Made by a program: the position numbers and the translations under genes. The notes beneath the pieces are model-generated. The model had not been told where the DNA came from. It did not search any database and saw nothing but the letters and a program-made list of their open reading frames with translations. From positions 41,972 to 105,971 of IMG/VR virus record IMGVR_UViG_3300021962_000047: 64,000 nucleotides of DNA. The stretch is one strand, 5' to 3'. The DNA comes from a virus. Below are positions 2,735 through 63,588 of this stretch, one piece after another (position 1 is the first letter of the stretch; every line of letters starts with the position of its first letter).

Positions 2735-2741
2735 ATAAATA
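2735..2741 (-). promoter_or_regulatory. TATTTAT motif before tail sheath gene
   Basis: An exact TATTTAT on the minus strand ends 32 bases before the sheath ATG, with an AT-rich leader. The leader is one of the three longest in the motif set. Confidence 0.55.
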
Positions 2742-2776
2742 TTCATAAAAATTACAAAATACCTATACTCCAGATA

Positions 2777-2784
2777 TATATTTG
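2777..2784 (+). promoter_or_regulatory. Possible host-type -7 element (TATATTTG)
   Basis: TATATTTG matches the Bacteroidota -7 consensus TAnnTTTG and lies 41 bases before the ATG of the small plus-strand gene at 2826. No TTG is found at the expected -33 distance, so the promoter is only half supported. Confidence 0.35.
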
Positions 2785-2825
2785 TTAATGAGTATGTATT
2801 TTTTCTGCCTTTTTTCTACCTACCT

Positions 2826-2975
2826 ATGAAAGAAATTAAAAACTTAAAAATATCAGTTGAAACACATAGTATCCTTAAATCATACTGTGATAGACGAGGA
2901 TTGAAGATGTATAAGTTTCTTGAGAAATTAATTGAAGATACTTGTACCGAAAAAAAAGATATATACGGGGAATAA
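2826..2975 (+). CDS. Small ribbon-helix-helix-like protein (49 aa)
   Basis: The ORF runs ATG to TAA, 49 residues, and its stop directly abuts the stop of the convergent gp15-like gene. The product is basic. Its layout of a short strand (NLKISVETH), a helix (SILKSYCDRRG), a turn and a second helix (MYKFLEKLIEDT) is what Arc/CopG-type ribbon-helix-helix DNA-binding proteins show. It is the only plus-strand gene in the left tail block, and a TAnnTTTG-like element lies upstream. A transcription-regulator role is inference from the fold pattern. It could also be a small protein of unknown role. Confidence 0.55.
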   Translation: MKEIKNLKISVETHSILKSYCDRRGLKMYKFLEKLIEDTCTEKKDIYGE

Positions 2976-4013
2976 TTAGATTAGGGTTGCCGTTGTAAAA
3001 ATTGTAGCATCCTTTAAATTGTCAATCTTTACCACATCTATTTTTAGAATATCATTTGTCGATATTTGTATTAGTCCGACATCATCCCCAATATAATTGT
3101 CATTTATATATACAGAATAACTGTCAACGTTTTCACTATCACCAACATTAATATCTGCGGTGTAATTAAATAATTCACTAATTGTTGTTACCGAATTTAA
3201 AAATTGTATATTCAATTCAAATTGATTACTCGGTGGCCACATTTCAGCTTTTCTAGCCTTTGTTTTAGTATCAACCTCAAACATTGTAAGTGTTCTTGAA
3301 ATTGCAGGTGTTACTTCAAATTCTTCTTCATCAATCAAAAATCCCATCATTAAGAATTCATAGTTTTGAATGTAGTATTTTCTTTTATCAACATCTAAAA
3401 CCGATTCATCAGATATATTATTTAATATAATTGGAACATAGTGTCCTTTAACAAAAGTATATGCCTGTCGAGATGTGAATTTTTGTAAAACAATTTTGTT
3501 AAACTGATTTAACTCTCTCATTCTATTACAAACAATCTTTACGTTATATGTGATATCAACAGGAACTGGTTGTGGAATTTTATAAATGTCCATTCCTTTT
3601 CTTTGTCCATCCCATGTTGGAACTTTGGCATAATAAAATTGCTTTCTATTTGGTATGGTATATTGTAATGATGGTGTTGTACCATATTTAACTTCAGGTT
3701 GTCTAACCGTAGTGATAAACGGAGGAACTGGATTACCGTTTAAATCTTCAAACTTCCAAGTTTGTGTAAATTGAGCCCAGTTCTGTGTGGTAATAATTAA
3801 ATCAATTGGTGGTACGGTTTTACCGTCAACAATTAATGTGATATCATCTTTAACAAAGTCCAACATACCTCTATCCAAATCTGCATGTAAAACAGATTTA
3901 GGAAGATAAGTTCCGTCTTCATTGATGTACTCAAGAAGCTGTTCTCTCCTCTCCCACCCAGTTTTAGGTGGAACCAATTGTAATGTCTTTTTAACTTTTT
4001 TAGGAAATGCCAT
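2976..4013 (-). CDS. Putative tail sheath stabiliser / tail completion protein (gp15-like)
   Basis: 345 residues. The central part (about residues 150-240) pairs an ITYNVKIVCNRMRELNQFN-type segment with a YIQNYEFLMMGFLIDEEEF segment. That resembles the core of T4 gp15, where a tail-end cap domain describes field strengths of similar strands and helices. The gene lies between a neck-like gene and the sheath gene on the same strand, and overlaps the upstream gene as TAATG, so the two are translated together. The C-terminal 60 residues look like an added beta-rich domain. The family call rests on local pattern and position; the residue-level similarity to T4 is weak. Confidence 0.5.
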   Translation of the reverse strand: MAFPKKVKKTLQLVPPKTGWERREQLLEYINEDGTYLPKSVLHADLDRGMLDFVKDDITLIVDGKTVPPIDLIITTQNWAQFTQTWKFEDLNGNPVPPFITTVRQPEVKYGTTPSLQYTIPNRKQFYYAKVPTWDGQRKGMDIYKIPQPVPVDITYNVKIVCNRMRELNQFNKIVLQKFTSRQAYTFVKGHYVPIILNNISDESVLDVDKRKYYIQNYEFLMMGFLIDEEEFEVTPAISRTLTMFEVDTKTKARKAEMWPPSNQFELNIQFLNSVTTISELFNYTADINVGDSENVDSYSVYINDNYIGDDVGLIQISTNDILKIDVVKIDNLKDATIFTTATLI

Positions 4014-4525
4014 TATAATCCTCTGAATTCATCTGTTGTTACAGGAGTTGCGGTATATGAATAATAGAAACTCTTATAACCACCATAAGTGTGTTTATTG
4101 TCATAGTCAGGTGTTGCAGCATCTATAACAGAATAGTAACGTATTTCATCCTCGGTAATTTGGTAACCGATGTAGTCACCCAGTTTAATTTCAATTTTTA
4201 ATTCTTCTAATTCTTTGTGGTAAACCGCAAATTCTATATTACCTGGTTCGTTTTGTAGAATACGAGAATTACCAATTGATTGTCTTGTTGGTTCTAAAAT
4301 TCTAACAAAAGCATTAAACTCAACGGGAGCTTTAAATTGAACCCCGTCAGAGGTAACTTCACCATAGACATCATCTTTGATTGTTCTTTGTTGGTCAACA
4401 GAATATAATACCATAGTAAAGTTCATGTCTCCATTGAGCCATTCTCTTCCCATCTCAATATCGAGATTATAATCCTCCTCGGCGAAGAACTTATTTAAAC
4501 GTGTAATTGGTACTCTACGTGTCAT
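4013..4525 (-). CDS. Putative neck / head-tail connector protein (gp14-like)
   Basis: 170 residues, no signal peptide or membrane segment. The second half contains KLGDYIGYQITEDEIRYYSV, a strand pattern seen in head-closure and neck proteins whose GDY-x-I and YY-x-V strands pack in a small beta barrel. It is the first gene of a minus-strand tail unit (neck-like, gp15-like, sheath) and has its own TATTTAT motif five bases before the ATG. The role is inferred from order and weak pattern. It could be another small tail-completion protein. Confidence 0.4.
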   Translation of the reverse strand: MTRRVPITRLNKFFAEEDYNLDIEMGREWLNGDMNFTMVLYSVDQQRTIKDDVYGEVTSDGVQFKAPVEFNAFVRILEPTRQSIGNSRILQNEPGNIEFAVYHKELEELKIEIKLGDYIGYQITEDEIRYYSVIDAATPDYDNKHTYGGYKSFYYSYTATPVTTDEFRGL

Positions 4526-4527
4526 CC

Positions 4528-4558
4528 TTGATAAATATTACAAAAATGATTATCTTTT
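4528..4558 (+). promoter_or_regulatory. Bacteroidota-type promoter for helicase gene
   Basis: TTG at 4528-4530 is followed after exactly 20 bases by TATCTTTT at 4551-4558, close to the Bacteroidota TAnnTTTG element. The helicase ATG is 15 bases further on. It overlaps the divergent TATTTAT motif of the minus-strand neck gene, so the two transcription systems share this 48-base gap. Confidence 0.5.
4531..4537 (-). promoter_or_regulatory. TATTTAT motif before neck-like gene
   Basis: Exact TATTTAT on the minus strand with only five bases between it and the ATG. If it is a -10-type element, transcription would start at or in the start codon. Confidence 0.6.
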
Positions 4559-4573
4559 ACTATATTTTATTGG

Positions 4574-6352: not shown

Positions 6353-6359
6353 TATTTAT
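6353..6359 (+). promoter_or_regulatory. TATTTAT motif before SOD-fusion gene
   Basis: Exact TATTTAT 14 bases before the ATG at 6374, directly after the helicase stem-loop. It separates this gene from the helicase as a new transcription unit. Confidence 0.6.
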
Positions 6360-6373: not shown

Positions 6374-7924
6374 ATGAAATTCAACAAGCATAAAAAGCGA
6401 ATAGAAGAATTGGAATTACAATTAAGTGGACAAACAAAAACAGATAAATTACCACTACCAATTCAAGAACAAAAAACCGAAACTATGAAGAAAGTAAAAA
6501 TCGAAAGATTACCTTACTCTTACTCCGCCTTGTCAAGATTTATTGACCCCGAAACAATGAACGTACACTACAACAAACATTACAAAGGGTATGTAGAAAA
6601 GTTAAACAGGGAGTTAGAAAAATTAAAAGAACAGGATTTAGAATTAGAACAAATCATAAAAGGTATCTCAAGATACAACACAACCGTTAAGAATAATGCG
6701 GGGGGAGCTTACAACCACCAATTATTTTGGAAGATGTTGTCACCAAAACAACAAAGACCATCAGGACCCGTTTACGATAAGATTGTAAAAAAATATGGGG
6801 ACTATGAAAAGTTCAAACAAGAATTTTCAAGAAAGGCAAAAAACAAATTTGGAGCAGGATGGGTATGGTTGGTTCTTACAAAAAATAATGACTTAAAAAT
6901 TATTACCACCGACAATCAGGATAACCCGTTAATGAATACCATTAATTTTGGGGGATATCCTTTGTTAGGATTGGACCTTTGGGAACACGCTTACTACCTC
7001 AAATATAAAAACAGAAGAGACGATTATATCAAAAACTTCTTTAGTGTTATCAACTGGAGTTACGTGAACTACCTATTTGATAACAAAACCAAAAAGAAAA
7101 TTAACGAATCTCGTGATGTGAAAAGTATCATTGAGGAGGGAGCATCGAGAGGTTGTAGTCCCGCTCAGGTAAACACTTATAGAGAAATCTTTAACAAAAA
7201 TTCTGAAATCAAAAAAATCTTCATGTTTGCAATTATGGATATTTTAAAAGAAGTTTTCGCTGATTTTTGGTATGATAAAGGAAAATATGCTGAAGGTGAG
7301 ATGTCAGGTGTTTATGACTATGAAAAGAAAGGTCGTTCTGTGATTAACAAATTAAACACAAACTACACGGCATTTTGTACTTTGGTTAATGATATAAACG
7401 AGGTATTAAAGAAAATGGGTGTTGACCCAATTAATATGATTAACCAATCTCCTGAACAACAAGTTAGAGAAGTAAGAAGGTTAGTCAGATATATGACGGA
7501 ATTCCGTTATAGAATTTTCAATCCAGAATCGGCAACATTTAAAAAGATTATGTCAGGATTGGATACTTCAAATCGTTTTGGTGATGAAAGAGAAATCAAA
7601 GCGGTTGTAAATATGAAAAACATATTTGGAACAAAAGAAGTATTCAAAGTGGGTGACCTTGGGAATGTTGAGGATATGTTAGGTGGGGTTGATGCTACCA
7701 TTACTAAAGATGGTGAAACCAAAACAGCACAAATCAAACCGTTTTCAACATATGAAGAAGGTGAAGATGGTAAAATTACCGTCTTTAACACAGGAAACGT
7801 AAAACCATATAAAACTGATTATTTGGTGTTCCACAACGACAGAAAAGGTACTATTGTGTTTAAAAACGATAATACTGAAATTGTTGGTGGTAATTATGTT
7901 TTCCCAAAAGAAGATATGTTGTAA
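6374..7924 (+). CDS. Fe/Mn superoxide dismutase domain fused to a C-terminal PD-(D/E)XK-like domain
   Basis: 516 residues. Residues about 45-240 match Fe/Mn superoxide dismutase: LPYSYSALSRFIDPETMNVHYNK has the first metal-ligand histidine, GGAYNHQLFW the second, and GLDLWEHAYYLKYKNRR the Asp and last His ligands, followed by a NW-x-YVN segment. The first 40 residues are a charged extension. Residues 250-390 are helical and unrecognised. Residues 400-516 contain GDEREIKAVVN, then GGVDATITKDGE and TAQIKPF, with the spacing of a PD-(D/E)XK nuclease core (helix Glu, D, Q-x-K). The SOD part is well supported; the nuclease-like part is inference. A normal bacterial SOD is about 200 residues, so the fusion is unusual. 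A late-type motif precedes it, so it may be packaged or act late. Confidence 0.85.
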   Translation: MKFNKHKKRIEELELQLSGQTKTDKLPLPIQEQKTETMKKVKIERLPYSYSALSRFIDPETMNVHYNKHYKGYVEKLNRELEKLKEQDLELEQIIKGISRYNTTVKNNAGGAYNHQLFWKMLSPKQQRPSGPVYDKIVKKYGDYEKFKQEFSRKAKNKFGAGWVWLVLTKNNDLKIITTDNQDNPLMNTINFGGYPLLGLDLWEHAYYLKYKNRRDDYIKNFFSVINWSYVNYLFDNKTKKKINESRDVKSIIEEGASRGCSPAQVNTYREIFNKNSEIKKIFMFAIMDILKEVFADFWYDKGKYAEGEMSGVYDYEKKGRSVINKLNTNYTAFCTLVNDINEVLKKMGVDPINMINQSPEQQVREVRRLVRYMTEFRYRIFNPESATFKKIMSGLDTSNRFGDEREIKAVVNMKNIFGTKEVFKVGDLGNVEDMLGGVDATITKDGETKTAQIKPFSTYEEGEDGKITVFNTGNVKPYKTDYLVFHNDRKGTIVFKNDNTEIVGGNYVFPKEDML

Positions 7925-7945: not shown

Positions 7946-7952
7946 TATTTAT
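7946..7952 (+). promoter_or_regulatory. TATTTAT motif before gp13-like gene
   Basis: Exact TATTTAT 15 bases before the ATG at 7968, in the sequence AATATTTATTAG, which is almost the same as the motif context at 6353. Confidence 0.6.
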
Positions 7953-7967: not shown

Positions 7968-9080
7968 ATGGCTATTATCATTGGAACCGAAAGAGAAAAA
8001 CTTTATACGAGAATTCGTCACCTTTTAGGAGCACCTCTTCGTGGTGTTGAGATTGAAGACGAAATGATGGATTCACTATTAGAATTGTCTGTTGAAGATT
8101 ATTCTCAATATGTTGATGACTGGTTGATTGAATCTCAATGGACATCTTTATATGGTATGGACATTGATACCCAATCTTTAACCAGAGCATTCACTACTCG
8201 TTCATTAGATTGGGAAACCCAATACACTTATGCATATTCTAAGATTGTAGGTTTACAAGCCGGTGGTCCTTGGGTTCTTAAAAAAGATTATTTTGATTTG
8301 GTTCCTAACCAACAGATATATGAAATTCCTGCTTGTCGTGAGATTAATGAACTTTTATGGTTCACCAGAGCTGAGTTAGATGCTGCGTTCTTTGACCCAT
8401 TTATGGGTGGTTTTGGAGGATTCGGTGGTGTAGGTTTAGGTGGTGGTGCCGGTTTCTCACAAATGGGAACAACTGGTAGTTACTTCATTACACCAGCATT
8501 TGATATCCTTTTAAGAATGCAAGACATCAATATCAAAAGAAGAATTATCGCTGGTGAACTAACATACCGTATTACAGCATTACCTGAGGGTAAAAAGGCG
8601 GTACATCTTTATAACGTACCTGGAGGTAAATTTGATTTTGGTAATATCGAAAACAATAGTTATCGTGTTTGGTATTGGTATTATGATACCTGTGATAGAG
8701 ATGATTGTTTACAAGCCAATCCTGATGTGGTTAGATTACCATCTGATGTACCAATTTCAGGTTTAAGATGGGATGAGTTAAACTCACCCGCAAAAACTTG
8801 GGTTCGTCGTTGGTTTACCGCATATGTTAAAGAAACTTTAGGTAGAGTTAGAGGAAAATATCAAGGAAACTTGAAAACTCCCGATAGTGAACTACAATTA
8901 GAATATGATTCCTTGTTAACGGAAGCTAAAGATGAAAAATCTAAATTACTTGAAGAATTGATGGCGAGGTTAGAAAGGCTTCGTCCTGATAAGATGATGG
9001 AAAGAGAGGCTAACGTTGCGGAACAATTAAACAAGTCATTGCAATATAGAGCAATGCCTCGTCAAATTTATGTAATTTAA
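7968..9080 (+). CDS. Putative neck protein (gp13-like)
   Basis: 370 residues. The start LLGAPLRGVEIEDEMMDSLLE followed by a VEDYSQYVDDWLIESQW helix is the pattern of gp13-like neck and head-completion proteins, which begin with a short LG-x-P segment, a helical bundle and then a beta domain. A glycine-rich loop follows (GGFGGFGGVGLGGGAG, about residues 147-162). The C-terminal 80 residues form a charged helix (LLEELMARLERLRPDKMMERE). It is monocistronic or paired with the next small gene, and lies far from the gp14- and gp15-like genes on the other strand. The gp13 assignment rests on pattern, not alignment. Confidence 0.5.
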   Translation: MAIIIGTEREKLYTRIRHLLGAPLRGVEIEDEMMDSLLELSVEDYSQYVDDWLIESQWTSLYGMDIDTQSLTRAFTTRSLDWETQYTYAYSKIVGLQAGGPWVLKKDYFDLVPNQQIYEIPACREINELLWFTRAELDAAFFDPFMGGFGGFGGVGLGGGAGFSQMGTTGSYFITPAFDILLRMQDINIKRRIIAGELTYRITALPEGKKAVHLYNVPGGKFDFGNIENNSYRVWYWYYDTCDRDDCLQANPDVVRLPSDVPISGLRWDELNSPAKTWVRRWFTAYVKETLGRVRGKYQGNLKTPDSELQLEYDSLLTEAKDEKSKLLEELMARLERLRPDKMMEREANVAEQLNKSLQYRAMPRQIYVI

Positions 9081-12289: not shown

Positions 12290-12643
12290 TCAAATGATAT
12301 TGATGTATAGTGTTTCCCTGATTGGGGCAATTAGTTCACCCATTGAATTGATAACCGAAAACTCTCCGATATATCTACCTTTTTTCTTTGTATCTCTACC
12401 CGTCCACTTATAATATATGTAATATTCAACGGGAGAATCAATGTTTGTGTCTGTTTTTGACACAATATATGCATTATTCATAAGAATTTTTGGAATACCA
12501 GTCGCTTCGTCTTTCATGGAAAAACGAATGGTAGCATTGTCTAAGTCCTCATCAAATAACCTCCATGCATTGGTTCTACCATCACGGACCACTTGCATTT
12601 TAAGGATTGGAAGCTCACTATTTTGTTTAATAAAGAATTCCAT
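12290..12643 (-). CDS. Stand-alone copy of the adhesin N-terminal domain
   Basis: 117 residues starting MEFFIKQNSELPILKM and ending YIGEFSVINSMGELIAPIRETLYINII. It is clearly paralogous to residues 1-115 of the gene at 16532-19762 (MEFFIRQNSTLPKLMV and VGRYIGEFKIVNERGEYIVPVR). The shape (strand, SLKDxxTG, strands, RYIGEF, ETLYINI) recalls N-terminal domains of baseplate upper proteins that attach receptor-binding proteins to the baseplate. The attachment role is inference. Here the domain ends just after its last strand, with no fibre or repeat fused. It has its own TATTTAT motif. Confidence 0.6.
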   Translation of the reverse strand: MEFFIKQNSELPILKMQVVRDGRTNAWRLFDEDLDNATIRFSMKDEATGIPKILMNNAYIVSKTDTNIDSPVEYYIYYKWTGRDTKKKGRYIGEFSVINSMGELIAPIRETLYINII

Positions 12644-12658: not shown

Positions 12659-12665
12659 ATAAATA
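12659..12665 (-). promoter_or_regulatory. TATTTAT motif before stand-alone attachment domain
   Basis: Exact TATTTAT on the minus strand, 15 bases before the ATG of 12290-12643. It sits between that gene and the end of the large repeat protein, so both large and small genes can be expressed separately. Confidence 0.6.
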
Positions 12666-12683: not shown

Positions 12684-15600
12684 TTAAGAACAGTTAGAGT
12701 AGAACGTAATATTGTTAGGTGAACAACTTGTCAAAGTATATTGACTATAGTTAGTTGCTGGAGGGTCTCCAGGGTTAGATGGTGATTGTGCATAAATGTA
12801 GTTACCTTGGACATCTGCTGCGATTTCACTATAGAAAATCGTTAATGAACACGGTGCAGGTGGGTCAACCGCACCGATTTCAACACGAACCACATCACCA
12901 ACACATGCGGATATTGTAGTTGTAGTATTCGAACCACAAGGAACACCAGTTCCAAACGAATAAACCTGAACTCCATTAACTTTAATAACTCCAAGAGTTT
13001 TAATACAACAAGTAGAACCAACAATACAGCCTTGTTTAATATGTTGAACATTTATTGTACAACATTGAGTTGTTTGAGTTGGTGTAACAGTTCTGGTTGG
13101 TGTTGGAGTCCTTGTTGGAGTTCTCGTAACTGTTTGAGTTGCAGTTTTAGTTGGCGTAGGAGTTGCAGTTCTCGTAGGTGTTGCAGTTCTCGTAGGTGTT
13201 GGAGTCGGTGTTGGTGTTGTAATAACACTCGTACATGGGTAAGATTCGGTACATGTAGCACAATCATCATAAGTAATACCACCAAATCCACCTGTAAATA
13301 CAGACCAAGTTATTGGTACATCAAGTATTTTATTTAATGTGTAACAATTATTTGAAATTCCTCCTTGTTCTGAAACATACACAATTAGACCATTATTATT
13401 ACTCACATACTCACAAATACTAGTATCTTGACTACCAAAGTAATATATTTCAAATTCACCTTCGGAACAACAATTGTCCGATAAACTAAAGTAACAATAC
13501 TCAGGACTTGTTGGAGTCGGAGTTAATGTTGGTGTTTGAGTTGGTGTAGGTGTTGGTGTCGGACACGGAGCTACATCATTACAAGCTGAACAATCGACAT
13601 ATAATGTAGTCACTTTATACTCTGCGGGTTCTGGCGTTCCCACTAAGTCATAAATTGTGTAACAAATTCCGTCAATTATAACAACATACCCTTGTAATTC
13701 ACTTCCATATGCCGTTGGAACATCAACAAATTTCACAATTTCAGTTCTTCCATCACAACATTCAATCATTGTTAATTCCCATGTAGTGTATGCAACCGTT
13801 TCGGTTGGGGTATTAGTAGGTGTATTTGTTGCGGTTAATGTAGGTGTAGCTGTTGCGGTCAACGTAGGTGTTGATGTCAACGTAGGTGTGTTTGTCGATG
13901 TTAATGTTGGAGTTGAAGTCCTTGTTGGTGTATTTGTAGCTGTTAATGTTGGAGTATTTGTCGCGGTCAACGTAGGTGTTGCCGTTGCGGTTAGTGTTGG
14001 AGTCGAAGTCCTTGTTGGAGTATTTGTGGCAGTTAACGTAGGAGTTGAAGTCCTTGTTGGTGTATTTGTTGCAGTCAACGTAGGAGTTGAAGTCCTTGTT
14101 GGGGTATTTGTTGCGGTTAATGTTGGAGTATTTGTCGCGGTTAAAGTTGGAGTATTTGTTGCGGTTAAAGTAGGAGTTGAAGTTCTTGTCGGAGTATTTG
14201 TTGCGGTTAAAGTAGGTGTTGAAGTTCTTGTCGGAGTATTTGTCGCGGTTAAAGTAGGTGTTGATGTTAATGTTGGAGTATTTGTTGCAGTCAACGTAGG
14301 TGTTGATGTTAATGTTTGGGTTGGTGTAGGAGTAACTGTTCTTGTTGCCGTTAACGTAGGAGTGTTTGTCGCTGTTAGTGTAGGTGTTGATGTTAATGTT
14401 TGAGTCGGTGTAGGAGTAACTGTTCTCGTTGCAGTTAATGTAGGTGTACTGGTTGATGTAAGTGTTTGTGTTGATGTAACTGTTTGAGTTTGTGTTGGAG
14501 TAACCGTTCTCGTTGCGGTTAATGTTGGAGTACTAGTTGAAGTCAACGTAGGTGTTGAAGTCAATGTAGGTGTGCTGGTAGATGTTTGTGTTGGAGTACT
14601 TGTTAAAGTCGGTGTGTTAGTTGCAGTTAATGTTGGAGTAGATGTTAGTGTCTGAGTATTAGTAGGTGTAACCGTTCTGGTTGATGTTAATGTCGGTGTG
14701 TTAGTTGGTGTTTGAGTTGGCTGTGCAGTCAATGTAGGTGTCGCAGTTGAAGTCAATGTAGGTGTTGAAGTCAACGTAGGTGTACTTGTTGAAGTTAAAG
14801 TTGGAGTATTAGTTGCGGTTAATGTGGGAGTATTTGTTGATGTTAAAGTAGGTGTAGATGTTAATGTTTGAGTTAAAGTTGGCGTTTGTGTTGGAGTAGA
14901 TGTAACTGTTTGTGTCGGTGTCGGAGTTGGACATGTAAATGTAGTACCCGCAACTGCATCACCATCTACATCAGTTACAATATTGATTTGTGTTGGGTCA
15001 CTTATTCTTTGAATATATAGGCTTGGACCTCCGTATAATGAAATTAATTCACTATAAATGTAAGGTGTTAGATTACCATCTGAATATAATGTTTCACCTT
15101 CAATTACAGGGTGGTCATTATCATAAATTACAATAGTTGATGGTGTACCATAACATAAATCATTTAAACTATTTGATATATAATAGTTTTCAGCATTTTG
15201 AATTTGAGTTGGTGTTGGTGTAGATGTTTGAGTGCTCGTAGGGGTTGGAGTATTTGTAGAACTCAATGTCGGAGTAGAAGTTAATGATTGAGTCGGTGTT
15301 GGTGTAACTGTTCTTGTTGAGGTTAATGTAGGAGTATTAGTTGCGGTTAAAGTAGGTGTACTAGTTAAAGTAGGTGTTGAGGTCGAAGTTAAAGTAGGTG
15401 TGTTAGTTGATGTTAATGTTGGCGTATTAGTTGAAGTTAATGTTGGCGTTTGACTCTGAGTTTGTGTATTAGTTGGAGTAACAGTTCTTGTTGATGTCAA
15501 AGTAGGTGTTGACGTACTTGTCAATGTTGGAGTACTGGTCGTTGTTGGCGTTGAAGTGCTCGTCTGAGTTGGAGTATTAGTAAGTGTTTGAGTTGGAGTT

Positions 15601-16482: not shown

Positions 16483-16489
16483 ATAAATA
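16483..16489 (-). promoter_or_regulatory. TATTTAT motif before 1261-aa adhesin gene
   Basis: Exact TATTTAT on the minus strand, 13 bases before the ATG, with an A-rich leader (TATTATAAAATAAAAA). Confidence 0.6.
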
Positions 16490-22583: not shown

Positions 22584-22595
22584 CTTTCTTTGTTA

Positions 22596-29968: not shown

Positions 29969-29970
29969 TT

Positions 29971-51492: not shown

Positions 51493-51499
51493 ATAAATA
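51493..51499 (-). promoter_or_regulatory. TATTTAT motif before scaffold-capsid operon
   Basis: Exact TATTTAT on the minus strand, 33 bases before the scaffold ATG. It gives the scaffold and capsid genes their own late unit after the terminator at 51546. Confidence 0.6.
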
Positions 51500-51594: not shown

Positions 51595-51804
51595 TTATTC
51601 GTAAACCTCATCAATCTTACTTTCAGCACATGCTGTAATTCTCCAATCGTGTGGGAACCCTGTAAATTTAGAAGTTACTTTAGCTTCAACGTCAGTAACG
51701 TTAAAACCTTTAACTAATTTTTCTTCTCTGATTTTTTTAATTTTACCTGAGTTCTCATCTGGCAAATCATACTGAATTTTTGCAACGAAATATTTTTCTT
51801 CCAT
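51595..51804 (-). CDS. DUF4494-like small protein (69 aa)
   Basis: 69 residues: YFVAKIQYDLPDENSGKI, REEKLVKGFNVTDVEAKV, WRITACAESKIDEVY. The strand-helix-strand layout resembles DUF4494, a family found in Bacteroidota and their phages, role unknown. It sits 13 bases after the protease gene and before a terminator, so it is expressed with the protease. Confidence 0.6.
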   Translation of the reverse strand: MEEKYFVAKIQYDLPDENSGKIKKIREEKLVKGFNVTDVEAKVTSKFTGFPHDWRITACAESKIDEVYE

Positions 51805-51817: not shown

Positions 51818-52540
51818 TTAATAACCTAAATAATCGGAAAGTCTTTTCATTAAGTCAAGTGATTTGTTGTTAGAACCTCCACTAATAGGGTTAGAAAGTT
51901 TCATATTTCTTTCTTCTTCTAAATTTTCGTCATACTGACTTCTATCATCTTTGTTTAAAAACAAGTACGCTCCTGGTGTTGATGGTGATGATACTAAGTC
52001 AAAACAAATCAATTCAAAATCATCTTGTACTTCATTTTGTTCACCCTTTTTAGCTAATGAACCAACACCACGAGAAGATACACCCATAGTAACACCTTGT
52101 CTCATTAAATTAGCTGCAATATCACCAGGTGAAGATACAATACCTCTTTCGTGGAATCCAGGTGTTGTTAATAGTTTAATCTTACCCATTAAAACATTAC
52201 CTTCCCACCATACATCAGTAATTAAGTGCGATACTCTTTCTAAATCTATTAAAGAAGATTCAGGGTGATTTAATTCTGAAATTGATAAACCTTTTTCGAT
52301 TGCCTTCTTATAATTTTCAGCTTCTCTTTTTAATATTCTTTCAGGGTATACTCTACCATTTCTATTTGGTACACCATATTTTTGTAAAACGGCATAAAAT
52401 ACAAATGGTTTAGAATGTTCTAATTGACCATATGATTCTCTTATTACTTGAGCGTTTCTTTCTTCAGTTGGTGATACGAAACCCGCATCCCACTCAACTA
52501 ATATTCCTTTTCCTGTATCGCTAGGACCTAATACTTTCAT
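51818..52540 (-). CDS. Prohead protease, gp21-like
   Basis: 240 residues. KYGVPNRNGRVYPERILKRE, then LSISELNHPESS (His, about 92), VSHLITDVWWEGN, MGKIKLLTTPG, and GVTMGVSSRGVGS (Ser, about 153) match the gp21 family of herpes-protease-like serine enzymes. It cuts scaffold and capsid proteins during head maturation. Length is near T4 gp21 (212). It lies before the scaffold gene, in the canonical order. A late motif precedes it. Confidence 0.93.
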   Translation of the reverse strand: MKVLGPSDTGKGILVEWDAGFVSPTEERNAQVIRESYGQLEHSKPFVFYAVLQKYGVPNRNGRVYPERILKREAENYKKAIEKGLSISELNHPESSLIDLERVSHLITDVWWEGNVLMGKIKLLTTPGFHERGIVSSPGDIAANLMRQGVTMGVSSRGVGSLAKKGEQNEVQDDFELICFDLVSSPSTPGAYLFLNKDDRSQYDENLEEERNMKLSNPISGGSNNKSLDLMKRLSDYLGY

Positions 52541-52554: not shown

Positions 52555-52561
52555 ATAAATA
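52555..52561 (-). promoter_or_regulatory. TATTTAT motif before prohead protease
   Basis: Exact TATTTAT in GTATATTTATAGTAAAAATA on the minus strand, 14 bases before the ATG. Confidence 0.65.
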
Positions 52562-53006: not shown

Positions 53007-53117
53007 ATAAAATATTTCATATTTTTTCTTCGTTTATTTTAATAAAATATAATAAAAATATTTGTATTAGTCAAAACTTGTCAAAAGAGTTTATATTTAT
53101 TATCATTAAATCAACGT

Positions 53118-53309
53118 ATGATAGTAATTCAATTAAAAAAAGGTGAGAGTATCGAAAAAGCTTTAAAACGATACAAGTATAAAGTTATTAAAACCCGTCA
53201 AATTGAAAAATTAAGGGAAAAACAAGAGTTTGTCAAAAAATCAGTTAAAAAACGAGAACAAAAGATGAAAGCCATATACAAACAATCATTATCCGATAAT
53301 GATGAATAA
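53118..53309 (+). CDS. rpsU: Ribosomal protein bS21 (Bacteroidota-like)
   Basis: 63 residues: MIVIQLKKGESIEKALKRYK, then KTRQIEKLREKQEFVKKSVK and KKREQKMKAIYKQSLSDNDE. The order KKGE-x-I-x-ALKRYK, R-x-x-F-x-K-x-SV-x-KR-x-Q-x-KA-x-Y matches bS21 of flavobacteria. Length fits (about 64). Tyr54 and its surroundings line up with the residue that I recall as contacting the anti-Shine-Dalgarno in Flavobacterium ribosomes. The protein binds the 30S platform. In the phage it may replace host bS21 and alter initiation. It lies alone on the plus strand inside the minus-strand late head block, with a terminator palindrome at its end. Confidence 0.85.
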   Translation: MIVIQLKKGESIEKALKRYKYKVIKTRQIEKLREKQEFVKKSVKKREQKMKAIYKQSLSDNDE

Positions 53310-53647: not shown

Positions 53648-53808
53648 TATTTCTTACTTAATACTGACCATACACCACCAACTAAGGTGATTAATGCACC
53701 GCTTAATTCTAAAAACTGCGTCTCATCAATTAAGCCTTTAGCCATTAAAATACCACCAATAAATGTAAGTGAGTGTCTTAATACACCTAATACTTGTTCT
53801 TTGTTCAT
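53647..53808 (-). CDS. Small membrane protein, holin-like A (53 aa)
   Basis: 53 residues, MNKEQVLGVLRHSLTFIGGI followed by LMAKGLIDETQFLELSGALI and TLVGGVWSVLSKK. Two hydrophobic segments are separated by a short charged turn, with a basic end; this is the plan of small class II-type holins. Its ATG overlaps the TGA of the 243-residue gene and its stop overlaps the next ATG, so all three are translationally coupled. Short gene; the holin function is inference. Confidence 0.6.
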   Translation of the reverse strand: MNKEQVLGVLRHSLTFIGGILMAKGLIDETQFLELSGALITLVGGVWSVLSKK

Positions 53809-54536
53809 AATCCTTGTTCTAATTGTTTTAGTTTATACAATGAAACCAAATCAGGTTTACTTTCATTGATTTTATTTATCGTCTGTGAAACTTTAGATGA
53901 CAATTCATTATCATCAGATTCACTACGAGTCATTTCCAATTTCGAAACGACTGACTCCTTTAATTCAATAAATTGTTTTTCAATTTCCTTTTTGTTCAAA
54001 GAAAGTAGAGATTTTAACTCTGTTTTTTCTTCTTCTGAAATTGTAGAGAATTCATTATTAAACGTAGAAGTTGCAATTTTTAACATAGATGATAATGGAA
54101 TATTAACACTCTCAGTTAAAGATTTTTCTTCTTTTGTTACAATTAAATTTTTAAGACGTGTTTTAGATTCTAAAACTTTTTCCAAGTTTGTAATTTTGTT
54201 TTCATAAACCACAAAATCAATATCTGAATATTGATTTCCATCAACATCTTTAATCAAAGTATCTACCCAATCACTTAATTCTTGGATTTTGCTTTTGTTT
54301 TTATCAATTAAGGAAACTAATTTTTCCAAAGATTCATTAACATATTCTGATGCGATATCTTTATTTATACCTTTTTTAGATGATAAATCATCATAGATAT
54401 AATAAATTTCAGAGATGTTTTTATTAGATAAAACTCTTTTTTTAAATTCTTTAATATGATTCTTGAATGAATCTTTACCGTAAGAATTGGCTAGAAGATT
54501 TTCGATATTTGATTTTATTTGACCGAATTTTTTCAT
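53805..54536 (-). CDS. Unknown helical protein after portal (243 aa)
   Basis: 243 residues, nearly all helix (KEFKKRVLSNKNISEIYYIY, ESLEKLVSLIDKNKSKIQEL, EKQFIELKESVVSKLEMTRS), rich in Lys and Glu. Placed directly after the portal gene, where T4 has small prohead-core genes (gp67/gp68), so it may be a core or scaffold part. It starts with its own late motif and is coupled to the holin-like genes. Confidence 0.6.
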   Translation of the reverse strand: MKKFGQIKSNIENLLANSYGKDSFKNHIKEFKKRVLSNKNISEIYYIYDDLSSKKGINKDIASEYVNESLEKLVSLIDKNKSKIQELSDWVDTLIKDVDGNQYSDIDFVVYENKITNLEKVLESKTRLKNLIVTKEEKSLTESVNIPLSSMLKIATSTFNNEFSTISEEEKTELKSLLSLNKKEIEKQFIELKESVVSKLEMTRSESDDNELSSKVSQTINKINESKPDLVSLYKLKQLEQGL

Positions 54537-54549: not shown

Positions 54550-54556
54550 ATAAATA
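54550..54556 (-). promoter_or_regulatory. TATTTAT motif before 243-aa gene
   Basis: Exact TATTTAT on the minus strand, 13 bases before the ATG and directly after the portal stop. Confidence 0.6.
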
Positions 54557-56428
54557 TCACTTGTTTAATAACTGGTCCAATTTACTTTCAATTTCACCTA
54601 ATGATTTTCTACCTTTTGACAAATCTATGGTGTCAATTACATTACCCTTCAATAAATTACCTTCCTCAACTATAAGGTTCATATCCCTTTCTTTTACAGA
54701 TTCAGGAGTAACTTCAGATTCAGGTGATGCCTCGGCTCCACCCACTTCAGGTGCTCCACCCACTTCAGGTGCTCCTCCAAAATCGGCACCTAAGTCACCA
54801 AAACCAGTATCTGCAGGTTCTGTTATTTCACTATCACCACCCGGCTCAGGGGATTCACTACCACCCTCTCCAGGTCTATTACCATATAACTTATCCAAGT
54901 TATCAAAAATACCTGTCTTAGTGATAACCTCAGGAGTTTTTTCCAATTCAGACGCAACAGCCTTTTCAATACGTTGTTGTTGGATATCCAATTTAATTTC
55001 TTCATCAGAGAAACCAAGGATGTGTTTCTTAGCCCAAGAAGAAGAAACGGGTTGAATACCATTACCTGGGTCAGCAACAGCATCTTTGTACAATTGTATT
55101 TTTTGTTGCCAGTTCTCAACCTTTAATAAATCAGCTTGAGTAGATGGGTTAGTTAAACCTAATGTGAAGTTATTTAATTCATCTTCAAATCCTAAAACGT
55201 AAAGGTGAATGATTGCAATTTTGTTTAACTCCTGAATCATAGATTTTTGAATTCTATTGATTGTACGAGCGAAACGAATATCCTGTAACGCCAAATTCTT
55301 ACCATCACCAACAACTTCTTCAAAACCTAAGAACGCTTTAGGAACACGAAGTGCCGTTAACAATTTCTTTTGGATATACTCAATATCAGCAATCTCAGAT
55401 AAGTTCTGAGCTCCTGGTAATGTATCAATTGGGTTTGGTGCGTTAGGGTCACGAACAGGAATAAAATAATCCTGGTCAACCGCCATCTGATTGTATCTTA
55501 AATCTACGTTACCTGTAGCTGAATCCACAACTTGGTCACGCTTGAATTTGTTGGCAACTCTTTGTACATAAGGCTCAACGTCCTTATCATCCATATTACC
55601 CACGAATACCTTAAACACCCTTCTTTCAGGTGCTCTTGATGTTCTATAGATTAACATAGCATCTTCAGACAAAATAAGTTGTTTCCAAATCCTTCTGGCT
55701 TTTTCCAACATAGAAGTACCGTATGGTAATTTTCTATCATCACCCAATAATCTAAAGTGAGCAATTTCCCATGTGTTGAATTCCAAGTCCTTTTCTTTCC
55801 ACGTAAACTTCAACATATCGTTTTCAGTTTCGGTTTGATATCTACCGGGACTTGATTTCATCCCCCTTTCTAAACGTTCGATTTGAATGTTTGGAAGCTG
55901 TTGAGCTCCCATAATACCTTTTTCGGAGTCAAGTTTTAAAAAGACAAAATTGTCCCCATACTTACAAGTATTTCTTGTCCACATAGGTAGATTAGTATTA
56001 ATATCAAGTCGATTGTTGAATAAGTCAGCAAGTACTGATTTAATACGTTTACTTTCGGAATAAATTTGTAGAATGTATCCATCTTCATTTGTTGTTGTTG
56101 ATTCTTCTGAATAAATATCCAACGCGGCGGAGATTTCAGGAGTATATTCCATACTCTCATAATCATAAAAGGCTGCTAATCTTGTTGGAGTATAATAAAC
56201 GGCTTGAGTATATAAGTTACTTTCAACCTTGGTCCATTGTTGACCCAAATACAAAGATTGTTGAGCTTCTAATTTCTCTCTTTCGTATTCGTTTTTATCG
56301 GTAGTTTTTAATAACTCCTTTTTGTCAAATTTATAAACCGGCGCTTGCTGGTCTAACGTAGAGTCAGGACCAAACACTTTGGTTAATCTCTGCCAAATTG
56401 TTAAGTTATTTAAATTGTTATCTGCCAT
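54557..56428 (-). CDS. Portal protein, gp20-like
   Basis: 623 residues. TPEISAALDIYSEESTTTNE, RNTCKYGDNFVFLKLDSEKG, ERLERGMKSSPGRYQTETEN, GTSMLEKARRIWKQLILSED, and KKLLTALRVPKAFLGFEEVV are the portal core patterns of T4-like phages. Portal rings form the DNA entry channel and head-tail joint. T4 gp20 is 524 residues; the extra 100 are an acidic Pro/Gly/Glu-rich tail (about 525-580) with repeated GGAPEVGGA. It lies downstream of terminase on the same strand, and has its own late motif. Confidence 0.95.
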   Translation of the reverse strand: MADNNLNNLTIWQRLTKVFGPDSTLDQQAPVYKFDKKELLKTTDKNEYEREKLEAQQSLYLGQQWTKVESNLYTQAVYYTPTRLAAFYDYESMEYTPEISAALDIYSEESTTTNEDGYILQIYSESKRIKSVLADLFNNRLDINTNLPMWTRNTCKYGDNFVFLKLDSEKGIMGAQQLPNIQIERLERGMKSSPGRYQTETENDMLKFTWKEKDLEFNTWEIAHFRLLGDDRKLPYGTSMLEKARRIWKQLILSEDAMLIYRTSRAPERRVFKVFVGNMDDKDVEPYVQRVANKFKRDQVVDSATGNVDLRYNQMAVDQDYFIPVRDPNAPNPIDTLPGAQNLSEIADIEYIQKKLLTALRVPKAFLGFEEVVGDGKNLALQDIRFARTINRIQKSMIQELNKIAIIHLYVLGFEDELNNFTLGLTNPSTQADLLKVENWQQKIQLYKDAVADPGNGIQPVSSSWAKKHILGFSDEEIKLDIQQQRIEKAVASELEKTPEVITKTGIFDNLDKLYGNRPGEGGSESPEPGGDSEITEPADTGFGDLGADFGGAPEVGGAPEVGGAEASPESEVTPESVKERDMNLIVEEGNLLKGNVIDTIDLSKGRKSLGEIESKLDQLLNK

Positions 56429-56441: not shown

Positions 56442-56448
56442 ATAAATA
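56442..56448 (-). promoter_or_regulatory. TATTTAT motif before portal
   Basis: Exact TATTTAT on the minus strand (CTATTTATGTAAAAATATATA), 13 bases before the portal ATG. Confidence 0.65.
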
Positions 56449-56504: not shown

Positions 56505-58286
56505 TTATTTTGACTTTCCGAATAACCATAAATAGTTTTGATAGTCATTTTTAGTTGCACCCCCTCCTCTACTTCCACCACCAATACCAAACGGGTCAGC
56601 ACCCATAGGAGTAGATGGACTGAAGTCATCAATAGGGTTTCTAACAGCCGATTCCTGAACGGTCCAACTATCAACCATAGCCTTTGTCTGTTCCGTAACC
56701 TTCTCCAATAAGGTAAATGATGTTTCACCCACATAGATAGCCATGGCACAAGCCATAATCAAATCGTCGTGTTGACCTTTAATATGGTCAGGTCTTCCGT
56801 TAACATATACAAACGTATTCAACTCATTTAATAAACGTGATGAACGAATATCAAAACCATGTCTTAATGCCTCTTCAAATGCAGCAACAATCTGAACCCT
56901 TTTTGAGTTAAAGTTAATACCTGGTATCTTCTCATCTGCCTTGGGGTTATACTTCCACTTATCGGCTAAATTAATACCATCAATATATAGATTTTTATAC
57001 CCCAATTCTTGCATTTTTCTTGAGGTAGAAACACCCATACCACCCGTTATATCAATCACCACAAAGGCTGAATACATCGTAGCCCATTTCAGTGCAATAT
57101 CGGCAGCCACATCAGGTGGTATCTTACCCAAATATTCTACAACCTGTTCACGAGTGTCAAAATCAAGAATACAAAAAGTCGTGAAGTCCTCAGAATCACC
57201 ACGAGAAACGTCAATACCCATAATGTATTTGTGACCCATCTGAGCTTCTTTCCATTGCCACAATGCTCCACCCATAAATTTATTAATCGGCTGACGAATA
57301 GAATTTTCTTTAATCTTTTCTATTGTTTCGGGGGGAATAACACTATCACCTGAACCTAAGAAATTACACTCCAATTCCTGTGCAATCTTTCTTCTGTCAA
57401 ATTTAAGTTTTTTGGCCATCGCTTCAAACCAAGATGAATATGGTTTATATCCGTCTAATATTTTTTTCTTAATATCTTCGAAATCCCTATCTCTTGGGTC
57501 TACGGTACTGTAATCAATTACAACATCCTCATCTTTATAATCTTCACGATTTAACATATAGTGAATCACATCTTTAACCTTAAGAAGTTTTAAATCTCGG
57601 GTATATCGTGGGTCTCTATACCAATACATTTCCGTGATTTTAAAGTCATTCATACCACGGAGAGCTTGGTCGTATATTGAATAGTAGATTTGGTCAAAAC
57701 CGTTTGGTGTTGAGATAACTATCACTTTACCACCTGTAGAAAGTGACGCCATACAAGCTGACCAGAAGTCGTCATCAGCTTCAATAAACGCAGCCTCGTC
57801 AAATATAAGAATAGTGGGGGTATAACCACGGAGTGCGTCTTTGGATGTTGCTACGGACTTTACTTCACACCCATTAGATAGTTTAAAGTGACGAGCTGCG
57901 TTTTTTTCGGTAGAGAATGTTACCCCCAACCAAGATGGCCATTGGTCGACAAACGACCTTACTTTGTTTGCAAATTCAACTGACGTATCAAGTTTGTTTG
58001 CAATAATAAGAATTTTTTCAGGTTTTGTTTTAGATGCAAAAACTAATCTTTTTGATACCCACGCCGAGGTAACTGTCGATACTCCAGCTTGACGATATTT
58101 TAACGCAATATTTTCCTCGTAGTTATCATAATCATTTACCAACTGTTCTTGGTCGGCAAATAAATCTAATGGTACATACTTGGATTGTGTGTTATCGTAG
58201 GTTTGTAAATATGTTTTAAGTGCGTAAGGTGTGTTTCTTACGCACTTAGCATATTCTAAGATTGCTTGTTCTTTGGATAAAGCCAT
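56505..58286 (-). CDS. Terminase large subunit, gp17-like
   Basis: 593 residues. ATPase: adenine-binding and Walker A region ALKYRQAGVSTVTSAWV (about 60-77), Walker B TILIFDEAAF (about 158). Nuclease (RNase H fold): GIDVSRGDSEDFTTF (about 353), FVVIDITGGMG (about 408), and GQHDDLIMACAMAI (about 503) supply the acidic residues. It cuts the concatemer and pumps DNA into the prohead through the portal. Near T4 gp17 (610). It has no late motif directly upstream; probably in the long 62067-56505 unit. Confidence 0.96.
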   Translation of the reverse strand: MALSKEQAILEYAKCVRNTPYALKTYLQTYDNTQSKYVPLDLFADQEQLVNDYDNYEENIALKYRQAGVSTVTSAWVSKRLVFASKTKPEKILIIANKLDTSVEFANKVRSFVDQWPSWLGVTFSTEKNAARHFKLSNGCEVKSVATSKDALRGYTPTILIFDEAAFIEADDDFWSACMASLSTGGKVIVISTPNGFDQIYYSIYDQALRGMNDFKITEMYWYRDPRYTRDLKLLKVKDVIHYMLNREDYKDEDVVIDYSTVDPRDRDFEDIKKKILDGYKPYSSWFEAMAKKLKFDRRKIAQELECNFLGSGDSVIPPETIEKIKENSIRQPINKFMGGALWQWKEAQMGHKYIMGIDVSRGDSEDFTTFCILDFDTREQVVEYLGKIPPDVAADIALKWATMYSAFVVIDITGGMGVSTSRKMQELGYKNLYIDGINLADKWKYNPKADEKIPGINFNSKRVQIVAAFEEALRHGFDIRSSRLLNELNTFVYVNGRPDHIKGQHDDLIMACAMAIYVGETSFTLLEKVTEQTKAMVDSWTVQESAVRNPIDDFSPSTPMGADPFGIGGGSRGGGATKNDYQNYLWLFGKSK

Positions 58287-61902: not shown

Positions 61903-62067
61903 TTAATTATTTAATCCATTAATACCGCCAAGAGCAACAGCATTTAACTGAACAACTGTATTACCTGATAAATCAGAATATTGAGGATAGGGTGGTATTG
62001 CAGTCTCTCCTTTGCCATTCCATGGTTCAAAGTATTGATAGTATGTGTTTGCACTATAGGTCGCCAT
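61903..62067 (-). CDS. Small unknown protein (54 aa)
   Basis: 54 residues ATG to TAA. MATYSANTYYQYFEPWNGKG, then ETAIPPYPQYSDLSGNTVVQ and LNAVALGGINGLNN: Tyr, Pro and Gly rich, no membrane segment. It begins with a late motif 16 bases upstream and leads a large downstream unit. The ending with LGGINGL may be a short structural peptide. Real gene status is moderately supported by motif and spacing. Confidence 0.55.
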   Translation of the reverse strand: MATYSANTYYQYFEPWNGKGETAIPPYPQYSDLSGNTVVQLNAVALGGINGLNN

Positions 62068-62083: not shown

Positions 62084-62090
62084 ATAAATA
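62084..62090 (-). promoter_or_regulatory. TATTTAT motif heading the packaging unit
   Basis: Exact TATTTAT on the minus strand, 16 bases before the 54-aa gene. It may drive the acidic-repeat gene through the terminase, as no other motif lies between. Confidence 0.6.
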
Positions 62091-62135: not shown

Positions 62136-62888
62136 TTATTCAGAAATTTCTTGTTCTAAAGACAATCTTTTATCCATAAGTTCGTTGGTGAAATCAAATA
62201 ATTTTTGAATATATCCGTTTCTTCTTAAAAATTTAAACACTAAATTTTCATACGAATATTCACCTTCTTTTTCTAATCCAGCTGAACGGTATGTTTTTAA
62301 CTTATCTTTTATTTTCTCAATCTCAACCAACGCATCATCTAACTCATCATCTTCAACATTATCTATTGTTGTATCAATAATGTCCATCCATTGGTCTACT
62401 TTCTGTTTGATTTTATTCTCATCAATAGTAACATCTTCAGGTGATGGTTCGGCAATCCACTTATCATATAGTACCGAATATACTCCAGTAGAAAAATGAG
62501 ATTCTTCAGTATCTTGTACATATAATTCCACATCATATCCCTTAACCGTAATATCGTGTGTAGAATTAAATAAGGTTTTCTTTAATTTAAATAATTCTTG
62601 ATATATCTCTTTAAACTCACCCGCCTCGTCAAAATTATACATAACATGTAAATCAACATCAGAAAATTCTGACCAGTTATAATTTGCCAATGAGCCGGTC
62701 ATAGTTATATCTGAAATAAAAATTTCAATACCTAAAAAATCAATAAATTCATTGGCGATTCGTAATAGAGAGTTTCTAACCTCATCTTGCATTTTGGCTT
62801 TAGATGGATTGTCAGGATTTGTCCATATAGTTGGATTAAGTTCATCCTGAATATTAAAGCTTGATATAATTTTGTTAAAGTTTTCCAT
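62136..62888 (-). CDS. Nucleotidyltransferase-fold protein
   Basis: 250 residues. TMTGSLANYNWSEFSDVDLH is the G-S-x(n)-D-x-D signature of the pol-beta nucleotidyltransferase fold, and GYDVELYVQDTEE carries the third acidic residue. The remainder is helical (DDALVEIEKIKDKLKTYRSA). The family includes tRNA-, antibiotic- and toxin/antitoxin-type NTases; the phage role is unknown. It has its own late motif, so it is probably made late and may be packaged. Confidence 0.75.
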   Translation of the reverse strand: MENFNKIISSFNIQDELNPTIWTNPDNPSKAKMQDEVRNSLLRIANEFIDFLGIEIFISDITMTGSLANYNWSEFSDVDLHVMYNFDEAGEFKEIYQELFKLKKTLFNSTHDITVKGYDVELYVQDTEESHFSTGVYSVLYDKWIAEPSPEDVTIDENKIKQKVDQWMDIIDTTIDNVEDDELDDALVEIEKIKDKLKTYRSAGLEKEGEYSYENLVFKFLRRNGYIQKLFDFTNELMDKRLSLEQEISE

Positions 62889-62893
62889 CTTAA

Positions 62894-62900
62894 ATAAATA
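62894..62900 (-). promoter_or_regulatory. TATTTAT motif before nucleotidyltransferase
   Basis: Exact TATTTAT on the minus strand, five bases before the ATG, one of the tightest spacings. Confidence 0.6.
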
Positions 62901-62996
62901 TTACGTATTACAATACCAAACTTCAAGGTCATATGATTGTAGATATAAGTCAAAAAACTTATTATTCGCAGCTTCTTTTAATTGGTTGTCAGTCAT
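62901..62996 (-). CDS. Possible 31-residue protein
   Basis: ATG to TAA of 31 codons (MTDNQLKEAANNKFFDLYLQ and SYDLEVWYCNT). It starts 15 bases after a TATTTAT motif and ends at the motif of the next gene, so spacing fits the unit plan. It is short, so real expression is uncertain. Confidence 0.4.
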   Translation of the reverse strand: MTDNQLKEAANNKFFDLYLQSYDLEVWYCNT

Positions 62997-63011
62997 TAAA
63001 AACGTTTAGTA

Positions 63012-63018
63012 ATAAATA
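63012..63018 (-). promoter_or_regulatory. TATTTAT motif before 31-residue ORF
   Basis: Exact TATTTAT on the minus strand, 15 bases before the ATG at 62996, directly after the KTSC gene stop. Confidence 0.5.
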
Positions 63019-63270
63019 TCACTCTTGCGATACTTTTGAAAAAACGTATTTTTTTGAGATTTCTTTGTTAAAGAATGACCCTTGGGATTCCGCCATTCTA
63101 AATTTTGTATATGCTTGGTGAGGAACACCTTCATATTCGTATTGTGTCCCATTTTTAAAAGTCACCAAAAGTTTTTTAGTTGCAGTATCGTAAATGGAAT
63201 AAATAACATTTGACGATTCAACTTCATTGATGATTTTTGTACCTTCTATTTTTTCACTTTTAATTGACAT
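63019..63270 (-). CDS. KTSC-domain protein (83 aa)
   Basis: 83 residues. ESSNVIYSIYDTATKKLLVT, FKNGTQYEYEGVPHQAYTKF, MAESQGSFFNKEISKKYVFS match the KTSC domain, a small alpha/beta fold found alone in many phages; role unknown, possibly RNA-related. Four bases separate it from the upstream 100-aa gene stop. Confidence 0.75.
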   Translation of the reverse strand: MSIKSEKIEGTKIINEVESSNVIYSIYDTATKKLLVTFKNGTQYEYEGVPHQAYTKFRMAESQGSFFNKEISKKYVFSKVSQE

Positions 63271-63274
63271 AGTG

Positions 63275-63577
63275 TTAATCTTTTAATGGTGTTTCTAAAT
63301 CTATTTTATATAATTCTTGCATTAAGTAATCAGTAAAATCTTTTTGATTTTCAATTAGACCATACTTTTTTAAATTTACATTAATATGATTTATATAATT
63401 TAAAAGTTTGTCCCTCATACGGTATCCTTCGGGGGATATATTCTCACCCTTTTCAAGGTCACTTTTTTTAACATTATTTTTTTGGAACAATATTCTCATT
63501 TCGTAATATGTTCTGAGTAGATTCTCAAAATCATCTTTCAAAACTGTGTCTAAGAATTTTTTCCAAGGTCTTTCCAT
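63275..63577 (-). CDS. Unknown helical protein (100 aa)
   Basis: 100 residues, all helix (KFLDTVLKDDFENLLRTYYE, RDKLLNYINHINVNLKKYGL, TDYLMQELYKIDLETPL). It starts with a TATTTAT motif only four bases from the ATG. No family is seen. Forms a two-gene unit with the KTSC gene. Confidence 0.6.
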   Translation of the reverse strand: MERPWKKFLDTVLKDDFENLLRTYYEMRILFQKNNVKKSDLEKGENISPEGYRMRDKLLNYINHINVNLKKYGLIENQKDFTDYLMQELYKIDLETPLKD

Positions 63578-63581
63578 AATA

Positions 63582-63588
63582 ATAAATA
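63582..63588 (-). promoter_or_regulatory. TATTTAT motif before 100-aa gene
   Basis: Exact TATTTAT on the minus strand, four bases before the ATG, the shortest spacing in the set. It directly follows the terminator hairpin at 63596. Confidence 0.55.

Follow-up and report, generated by a model that had tools for sequence, protein, structure and literature searches.

The late promoters of phage T4 (Straboviridae) and their sigma factor gp55 are the closest described counterpart of the system treated here. They consist of a single -10-like box, TATAAATA, without a -35 element, stand before virion genes and are read by a sigma-region-2 factor (PMC2988020, PMC7892883). The T4 box spans -13 to -6 (PMC2988020), in the gp55 structure -12A, -9A and -8A are held in protein pockets (PMC7892883), and the clamp-binding epitope of gp55 is a short hydrophobic/acidic C-terminal tail (PMC2988020). 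The T4 relative Aeromonas phage Aeh1 has a late box that departs from TATAAATA at -13/-12 (PMC2988020), and the review by Geiduschek and colleagues raises the question why a fused gp55-gp33 late sigma is not known from nature (PMC2988020, section 9). Here we analyse a stretch of 64,000 nucleotides (the window; G+C 33.4%), which runs from position 41972 to the last position, 105971, of a virus contig in IMG/VR (IMGVR_UViG_3300021962_000047). In this window the heptamer TATTTAT precedes virion genes, and a gp55-like sigma factor is encoded at 36420-37172. These features are best read as a T4-type late-promoter system in which both the box and the sigma are variants. That TATTTAT is a promoter is very probable; for a late promoter with the 36420 sigma as its reader, where the link between sigma and box is inferred, we estimate a probability of about 0.75.

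Enrichment, conservation and spacing of the TATTTAT box

The motif was counted when it lay at most 40 nucleotides (nt) upstream of a start codon on the sense strand, and the counts were compared with 2,000 dinucleotide shuffles. In the parent contig 23 of 88 genes carry the box, while the shuffles gave 2.3 +/- 1.5 with a maximum of 8, and TATTTAT is by a wide margin the strongest of all upstream heptamers. The antisense count is below expectation (3 genes vs 5.2). As a positive control, the same script found TATAAATA as the top octamer of T4 (11/52 genes). Of the 38 genes that either are divergent or have a gap of 30 nt or more before them, 22 carry the box, and so do none of the 37 genes that start less than 10 nt behind a neighbour on the same strand.

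The relatives comprise 80 loci fetched from IMG/VR via the sigma protein and 80 via the capsid protein, which together with the parent contig gives 161 sequences; counts across them include related sequences and are not independent events. TATTTAT ranks first of all heptamers in the 80 sigma-fetched relatives (224 seen vs 19.7 expected, 1,811 genes). The test for enrichment in the whole contig and in relatives, which the earlier note had proposed as a check, came out clearly on the side of the motif. All gene families with at least eight members across the 161 sequences were then counted. Ten families have a box in half of their members or more; of their 512 members 419 carry the exact heptamer and only 10 a version with one mismatch, whereas in the families with little or no motif the box is found in 8 of 1,539 members. 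For orthologues of the operon-internal genes around the capsid gene the value is near 0.

Judged by the capsid protein, the nearest named phages are Microcystis phage Mel-JY01 (PP395634), the uncultured phage LR756508 and Flavobacterium phage immuto (MW353176), each with less than 60% identity. Like the window phage, immuto and Mel-JY01 have a gp23-type capsid, a homologous sigma and TATTTAT before virion genes. In immuto the box precedes 27 genes vs 2.8 expected, and it is concentrated in the virion half (19/80 genes vs 8/139 elsewhere, p=2e-4), where terminase, portal, sheath, tail completion, baseplate hub and tape measure genes are among the boxed ones. Among the upstream heptamers in the capsid/tail part of Mel-JY01, TATTTAT ranks first, and in this phage it lies mostly 24-37 nt from the start. 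Immuto differs from the window phage by its family A DNA polymerase, and Mel-JY01 by its T4-type clamp-loader genes, its Shine-Dalgarno sites and its longer motif distances; the window phage and Mel-JY01 both have family B DNA polymerases.

A logo of 301 unique sites reads aTATTTAT, followed by an A-rich region 5-8 nt past the box, and shows no -35 element beyond a weak T-richness 13-16 nt upstream of the box. The eighth base, on which a full TATTTATA depends, varies, with A in 55% of sites. The earlier note had equated the motif with part of T4's TATAAATA in reverse complement. With the enrichment on the sense strand and this loose eighth base we abandon that description: the natural comparison is TATAAAT with its middle AA changed to TT, so that the box differs from T4's at -10/-9. 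It also differs from the Aeh1 box, which is altered at -13/-12, where TATTTAT keeps -12A as well as -8A.

The distances from box to ATG have two peaks, 4-6 nt and 12-18 nt, and only a few values fall at 7-11 nt. By gene family they have a floor, because 0-3 nt occurs four times and 4-7 nt 29 times. Since an mRNA must begin at or before its start codon, this floor suggests that the RNA begins about 4 nt or more past the box; from the position of the T4 box a start 5-6 nt past it would be predicted, so that the inferred spacing resembles that of T4 late promoters (PMC2988020, PMC7892883). In the families at 4-6 nt the N-termini are conserved from the first residue, and therefore leaderless or nearly leaderless mRNAs are likely for these genes. 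The nearly leaderless mRNA that the earlier note had proposed from the short gaps agrees with both the floor and the 4-6 nt cluster. Shine-Dalgarno cores are scarce here (6/88 genes) and in immuto (10/218) and far more frequent in the T4 stretch (34/52) and in a part of Mel-JY01 (25/64). Short distances without Shine-Dalgarno sites here and longer ones in Mel-JY01 fit a promoter whose spacing follows the mode of translation.

On the preferred reading TATTTAT would be the whole recognition box, placed like the -10-like element of T4, and the host RNA polymerase core with the phage gp55-like sigma would open the DNA there. Transcription would start about 4-7 nt downstream of the box. With an ATG 4-6 nt past the box the message would begin at the start codon or within 1-2 nt of it, and with an ATG at 12-18 nt it would have a leader of about 7-13 nt. 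Most virion genes would be made from a box, some of them via a promoter one gene upstream (scaffold to capsid), while the replication, nucleotide, sugar and sigma genes inside what would be the early block have no box. The transcription starts, the late timing, the use of host RNA polymerase and the reading of the box by the sigma are all four inferred.

The gp55-like sigma factor

36420-37172, plus strand: gp55-like sigma P0001, 250 amino acids (aa), with sigma region 2 at about residues 45-130 and a five-helix C-terminal domain at about residues 158-250

The nearest 80 loci encode counterparts of P0001 with 66-81% identity. Homologues with E-values of 5e-14 or better are encoded by immuto, where the protein is immuto35A_152, and by Mel-JY01 and LR756508, those of immuto and Mel-JY01 being annotated as hypothetical. 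Searches with the single sequence gave weak matches. Among 21 family members, 17 match a late-sigma PHROG (best E 7e-4) and 18 match Sigma70_r2 (best E 9e-4); a gp55 profile matches the family over residues 51-186 (E 2e-5), and gp55 in the PDB (7d7c) is the third hit for P0001, collinear at E 0.56. The full-chain structure model is poor, with a predicted template modelling score (pTM) of 0.38; its Foldseek list is rich in sigma factors and includes alignments to two-domain sigmas, none of them below E 0.05. Only the sum of these weak matches is convincing, and it points to P0001 as a distant gp55 homologue in sigma region 2, as the earlier note had supposed. The residues Y97, R57 and F86, which form the -12 pocket in gp55, are kept in P0001, and T99 is G; at -9, TATTTAT is altered.

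The chain ends in a helical domain and lacks the clamp-binding tail of gp55. This domain of about 90 residues is modelled well as five helices (predicted local distance difference test score 87, pTM 0.78). Its fold has no PDB match below E 1 and none in a viral fold library, Sigma70_r4 (region 4) matches none of the 21 family members, and hhalign against T4 gp33 gives a probability of 1.3%, no whole-genome search for gp33 having been made. An identification of the domain as gp33 or sigma region 4 is therefore unsupported by sequence or fold comparison.

The C-terminal domain of T4 gp45 (PF09116) was not recognised in eight large relatives, the parent contig, immuto or Mel-JY01, records that may be incomplete; the control search found it in T4 and in five of five distant T4-like phages. 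A reading in which the group has no sliding clamp was dropped because of the gp44/gp62-type clamp-loader genes of Mel-JY01 and the family B polymerases of the window phage and Mel-JY01; with these clamp-loader genes a diverged clamp is likely in Mel-JY01. An unannotated 250-aa protein at 29156-29905 of Mel-JY01, between the DNA polymerase and clamp-loader genes, is possibly a diverged sliding clamp, and a search found no relative of it. The RNA polymerase beta domain PF00562 was found in none of 11 genomes, with 14 of 14 controls positive, in a search that did not cover single-subunit polymerases. That the system is simply that of T4 is not supported, since the C-terminus of the sigma differs and the T4 clamp activator is not recognised; further differences are the probably very short leaders and the near absence of Shine-Dalgarno sites.

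The two-domain chain is a candidate for the fused gp55-gp33 sigma of the review, which it resembles in having a gp55-type domain and then a second folded domain in one chain (PMC2988020). It is unlike such a fusion in that no sequence or fold link of the second domain to gp33 or sigma region 4 was found, and gp33-like work of this domain is hypothetical. In its widest form the proposal would see in the 36420 family a naturally occurring late sigma of one chain, whose gp55-type region 2 is joined to a beta-flap or activator domain. This sigma would read a divergent single box without gp33 and gp45, and the late mRNAs that it drives, in hosts not using Shine-Dalgarno sites, would largely have no leader or almost none. 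This is speculative, and we rate it as rather doubtful.

A side observation concerns the sigma homologue of LR756508, a 484-kb phage. Its frame (98812-102474) is opened by TAG read as an amino acid, and the genome may be recoded.

Box sites and genes in the window

The exact heptamer occurs 33 times in the window, 14 times on the plus and 19 times on the minus strand. The earlier note had listed 19 copies before genes, and all of them are exact TATTTAT in position and strand and lie 4-34 nt from an ATG. It overlooked one further site, 53094 on the plus strand, and thereby erred in stating that the box does not precede bS21; one of its own sites, 63012, precedes only a 31-aa open reading frame (ORF). 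The sites are as follows.

2735-2741, minus strand: box 32 nt before the tail sheath start (2702); sheath phrog_23, E 5.5e-14
4531-4537, minus strand: box 5 nt before a 170-aa ORF (4013-4525), leaderless-like
6353-6359, plus strand: box 14 nt before the gene of a 516-aa Fe/Mn superoxide dismutase-domain protein (6374-7924)
7946-7952, plus strand: box 15 nt before a head-tail adaptor Ad2-like gene (7968-9080)
12659-12665, minus strand: box 15 nt before a 117-aa ORF (12290-12643)
16483-16489, minus strand: box 13 nt before a 1261-aa ORF (12684-16469)
22577-22583, minus strand: box 14 nt before a 928-aa ORF (19776-22562), forming a divergent pair with 22596
22596-22602, plus strand: box before a 244/246-aa ORF (22611 or 22617 to 23351), 8 nt from the nearest ATG and 14 nt from the start of our own gene call
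37189-37195, plus strand: box 6 nt before a conserved 124-aa gene (37202-37576) adjoining the sigma gene
41322-41328, plus strand: box 14 nt before a 503-aa ORF (41343-42854); present in 73/101 family members
47108-47114, minus strand: box 34 nt before the gene of a 1064-aa peptidase/tail-type protein (43879-47073); present in 51/55 orthologues at varied distances
51493-51499, minus strand: box 33 nt before the putative scaffold gene (50200-51459), upstream of the major capsid gene; present in 49/53 orthologues
52555-52561, minus strand: box 14 nt before the prohead protease gene (51818-52540, gp21 type); present in 38/44 orthologues
53094-53100, plus strand: box 17 nt before the bS21 gene (53118-53309; Pfam Ribosomal_S21, E 6.9e-11); present in 11/27 orthologues
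54550-54556, minus strand: box 13 nt before a 243-aa ORF (53805-54536); present in 19/25 orthologues
56442-56448, minus strand: box 13 nt before the portal gene (54557-56428, gp20 type; Portal_T4, E 5.9e-80)
62084-62090, minus strand: box 16 nt before a 54-aa ORF (61903-62067)
62894-62900, minus strand: box 5 nt before a 250-aa ORF (62136-62888; nucleotidyltransferase-like, phrog_36119)
63012-63018, minus strand: box 15 nt before the 31-aa ORF (start 62996), the weakest site
63582-63588, minus strand: box 4 nt before a 100-aa ORF (63275-63577), directly after a terminator-like G+C hairpin with a T-rich tail

Three further features have no box of their own, or only one at their head:

48346-50175, minus strand: major capsid protein gene (gp23 type); a box in 2/80 orthologues
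56505-58286, minus strand: terminase large subunit gene; a box in 2/20 orthologues
22617-36420, plus strand: exonuclease, dUTPase, glycosyltransferase, UDP-glucose (uridine diphosphate glucose) dehydrogenase, epimerase and PhoH block leading to the sigma gene; a box only before its first gene (22596) and 0 hits in the sampled orthologue families

The window thus contains a T4-like virion module (portal, gp21-type protease, gp23-type capsid, terminase, tail sheath), and compared with T4 the homologues of gp20 portal, gp21 protease, gp23 capsid and gp17 terminase are in T4-like order. The placement of the box before virion genes, claimed by the earlier note as a late-promoter system, is borne out by enrichment, strand and conservation. 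The scaffold role of 50200-51459 is putative and taken from its place between protease and capsid, as in T4; the capsid gene is probably read from the promoter of this gene.

In the family of the 37202-37576 gene 67 of 89 members have the box, nearly all at 4-6 nt; its product is a candidate late co-factor without an assigned function. The two boxes at 22577-22602 stand back to back, 12 bp apart, before divergent genes, and offer a compact case for strand-specific starts. The superoxide dismutase domain of the 6374-7924 protein is full (E 1e-37), and its gene lies between the helicase and head-tail adaptor genes; because it has its own late box the protein may be a late or virion-associated enzyme. 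A 69-aa DUF4494 protein (51595-51804, minus strand) is encoded between the protease and scaffold genes and kept in 48 relatives, and a DUF4494 gene is present in immuto too. On the minus strand, three very long proteins encoded side by side (12684-16469, 16532-19762 and 19776-22562) have a common stretch of phrog_15511 (function unknown), which suggests paralogues, perhaps of the tail. Rfam and tRNA scans of the window gave no matches. As a clue to the host, a search for bacterial relatives returned none for the UDP-glucose dehydrogenase and only distant Coriobacteria and a planctomycete for PhoH.

Weighing the readings, and their significance

Several points weigh against the late-promoter reading. 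Each match of P0001 to known sigmas is weak by itself, and the contact residues of T4 gp55 do not by themselves explain the changed box: the -12 pocket is kept, but position 95 is aromatic in cyanophage gp55 too. The capsid and terminase genes lack a box of their own. The gene starts come from our own calling script, so that single start codons may be wrong, and transcription from the box is a prediction from sequence. Finally, LR756508 has a sigma homologue, yet TATTTAT is not enriched in the 100 kb scanned.

This last point would also fit a real late promoter with another reader, be it a second phage sigma, an activator or a modified host sigma, the 36420 protein then having another role. 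Homology and co-occurrence are what links the sigma to the box. However, the 36420 family is the only sigma-like protein found, the scan of the parent contig having covered part of its genes, and all three lineages with an enriched motif encode a member. We consider another reader unlikely.

A translation-initiation element on the mRNA, i.e. an AU-rich bS1 or Kozak-like enhancer which replaces the Shine-Dalgarno sequence, would account for the near absence of Shine-Dalgarno cores and for the many boxes at similar distances from the ATG, and A-rich signals upstream of starts are known from Flavobacterium (PMC6847099). Against it, operon-internal genes have no box, and such an element hardly fits the drift of the distance, which within the orthologues of a single gene ranges from 3 to 36 nt. 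Moreover, Mel-JY01 has Shine-Dalgarno sites, yet carries the motif mostly far from the start, and at 4 nt the box would abut the start codon. On operon position and drifting distance we reject this element as very unlikely.

AU-rich sites can be cut by RNases. A processing site that yields mRNAs with short leaders would therefore agree with the composition of the box, and the 4-nt floor fits a cut just downstream. In three good cases, however, the upstream gene and the box are separated by a same-strand hairpin that resembles a terminator, and a new transcription start is needed there. These cases are illustrative only, as terminators upstream of box genes show no overall enrichment (p=0.35); we nevertheless regard processing as highly improbable.

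A promoter of the host primary sigma, of the Bacteroidota TTTG / TAnnTTTG type, might be expected from the Flavobacterium host of the relative immuto and from an A+T-rich -10. The motif contains no TTTG and has no -35 element, and TAnnTTTG is rare between genes here, with 6 sites, none of which has a -33 part; such a promoter is scarcely credible and was rejected on this rarity. An ordinary T4 promoter facing the opposite way, to which the identity of TATTTATA with the reverse complement of TATAAATA might point, is rejected as practically negligible on strand and eighth base, since it would drive RNA away from the genes and its antisense count is below expectation.

In a literature search whose coverage left out most subscription journals, we found no report of TATTTAT as a phage promoter. 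The late-promoter reading would supply an exact, testable rule for an abundant group of mostly uncultured T4-like phages, and with this rule late genes and operons would become readable from sequence. It would widen T4-type late transcription so as to include phages that differ in the box and in the architecture of the sigma, and it would link promoter spacing to the mode of translation, with very short leaders where Shine-Dalgarno sites are missing and longer ones in Mel-JY01, which has them. The extra domain of the sigma would make the question why T4's late sigma is split directly testable. If the one-chain proposal is true, the 36420 family would be the fused late sigma which T4 researchers have asked about and which was previously not found in nature.

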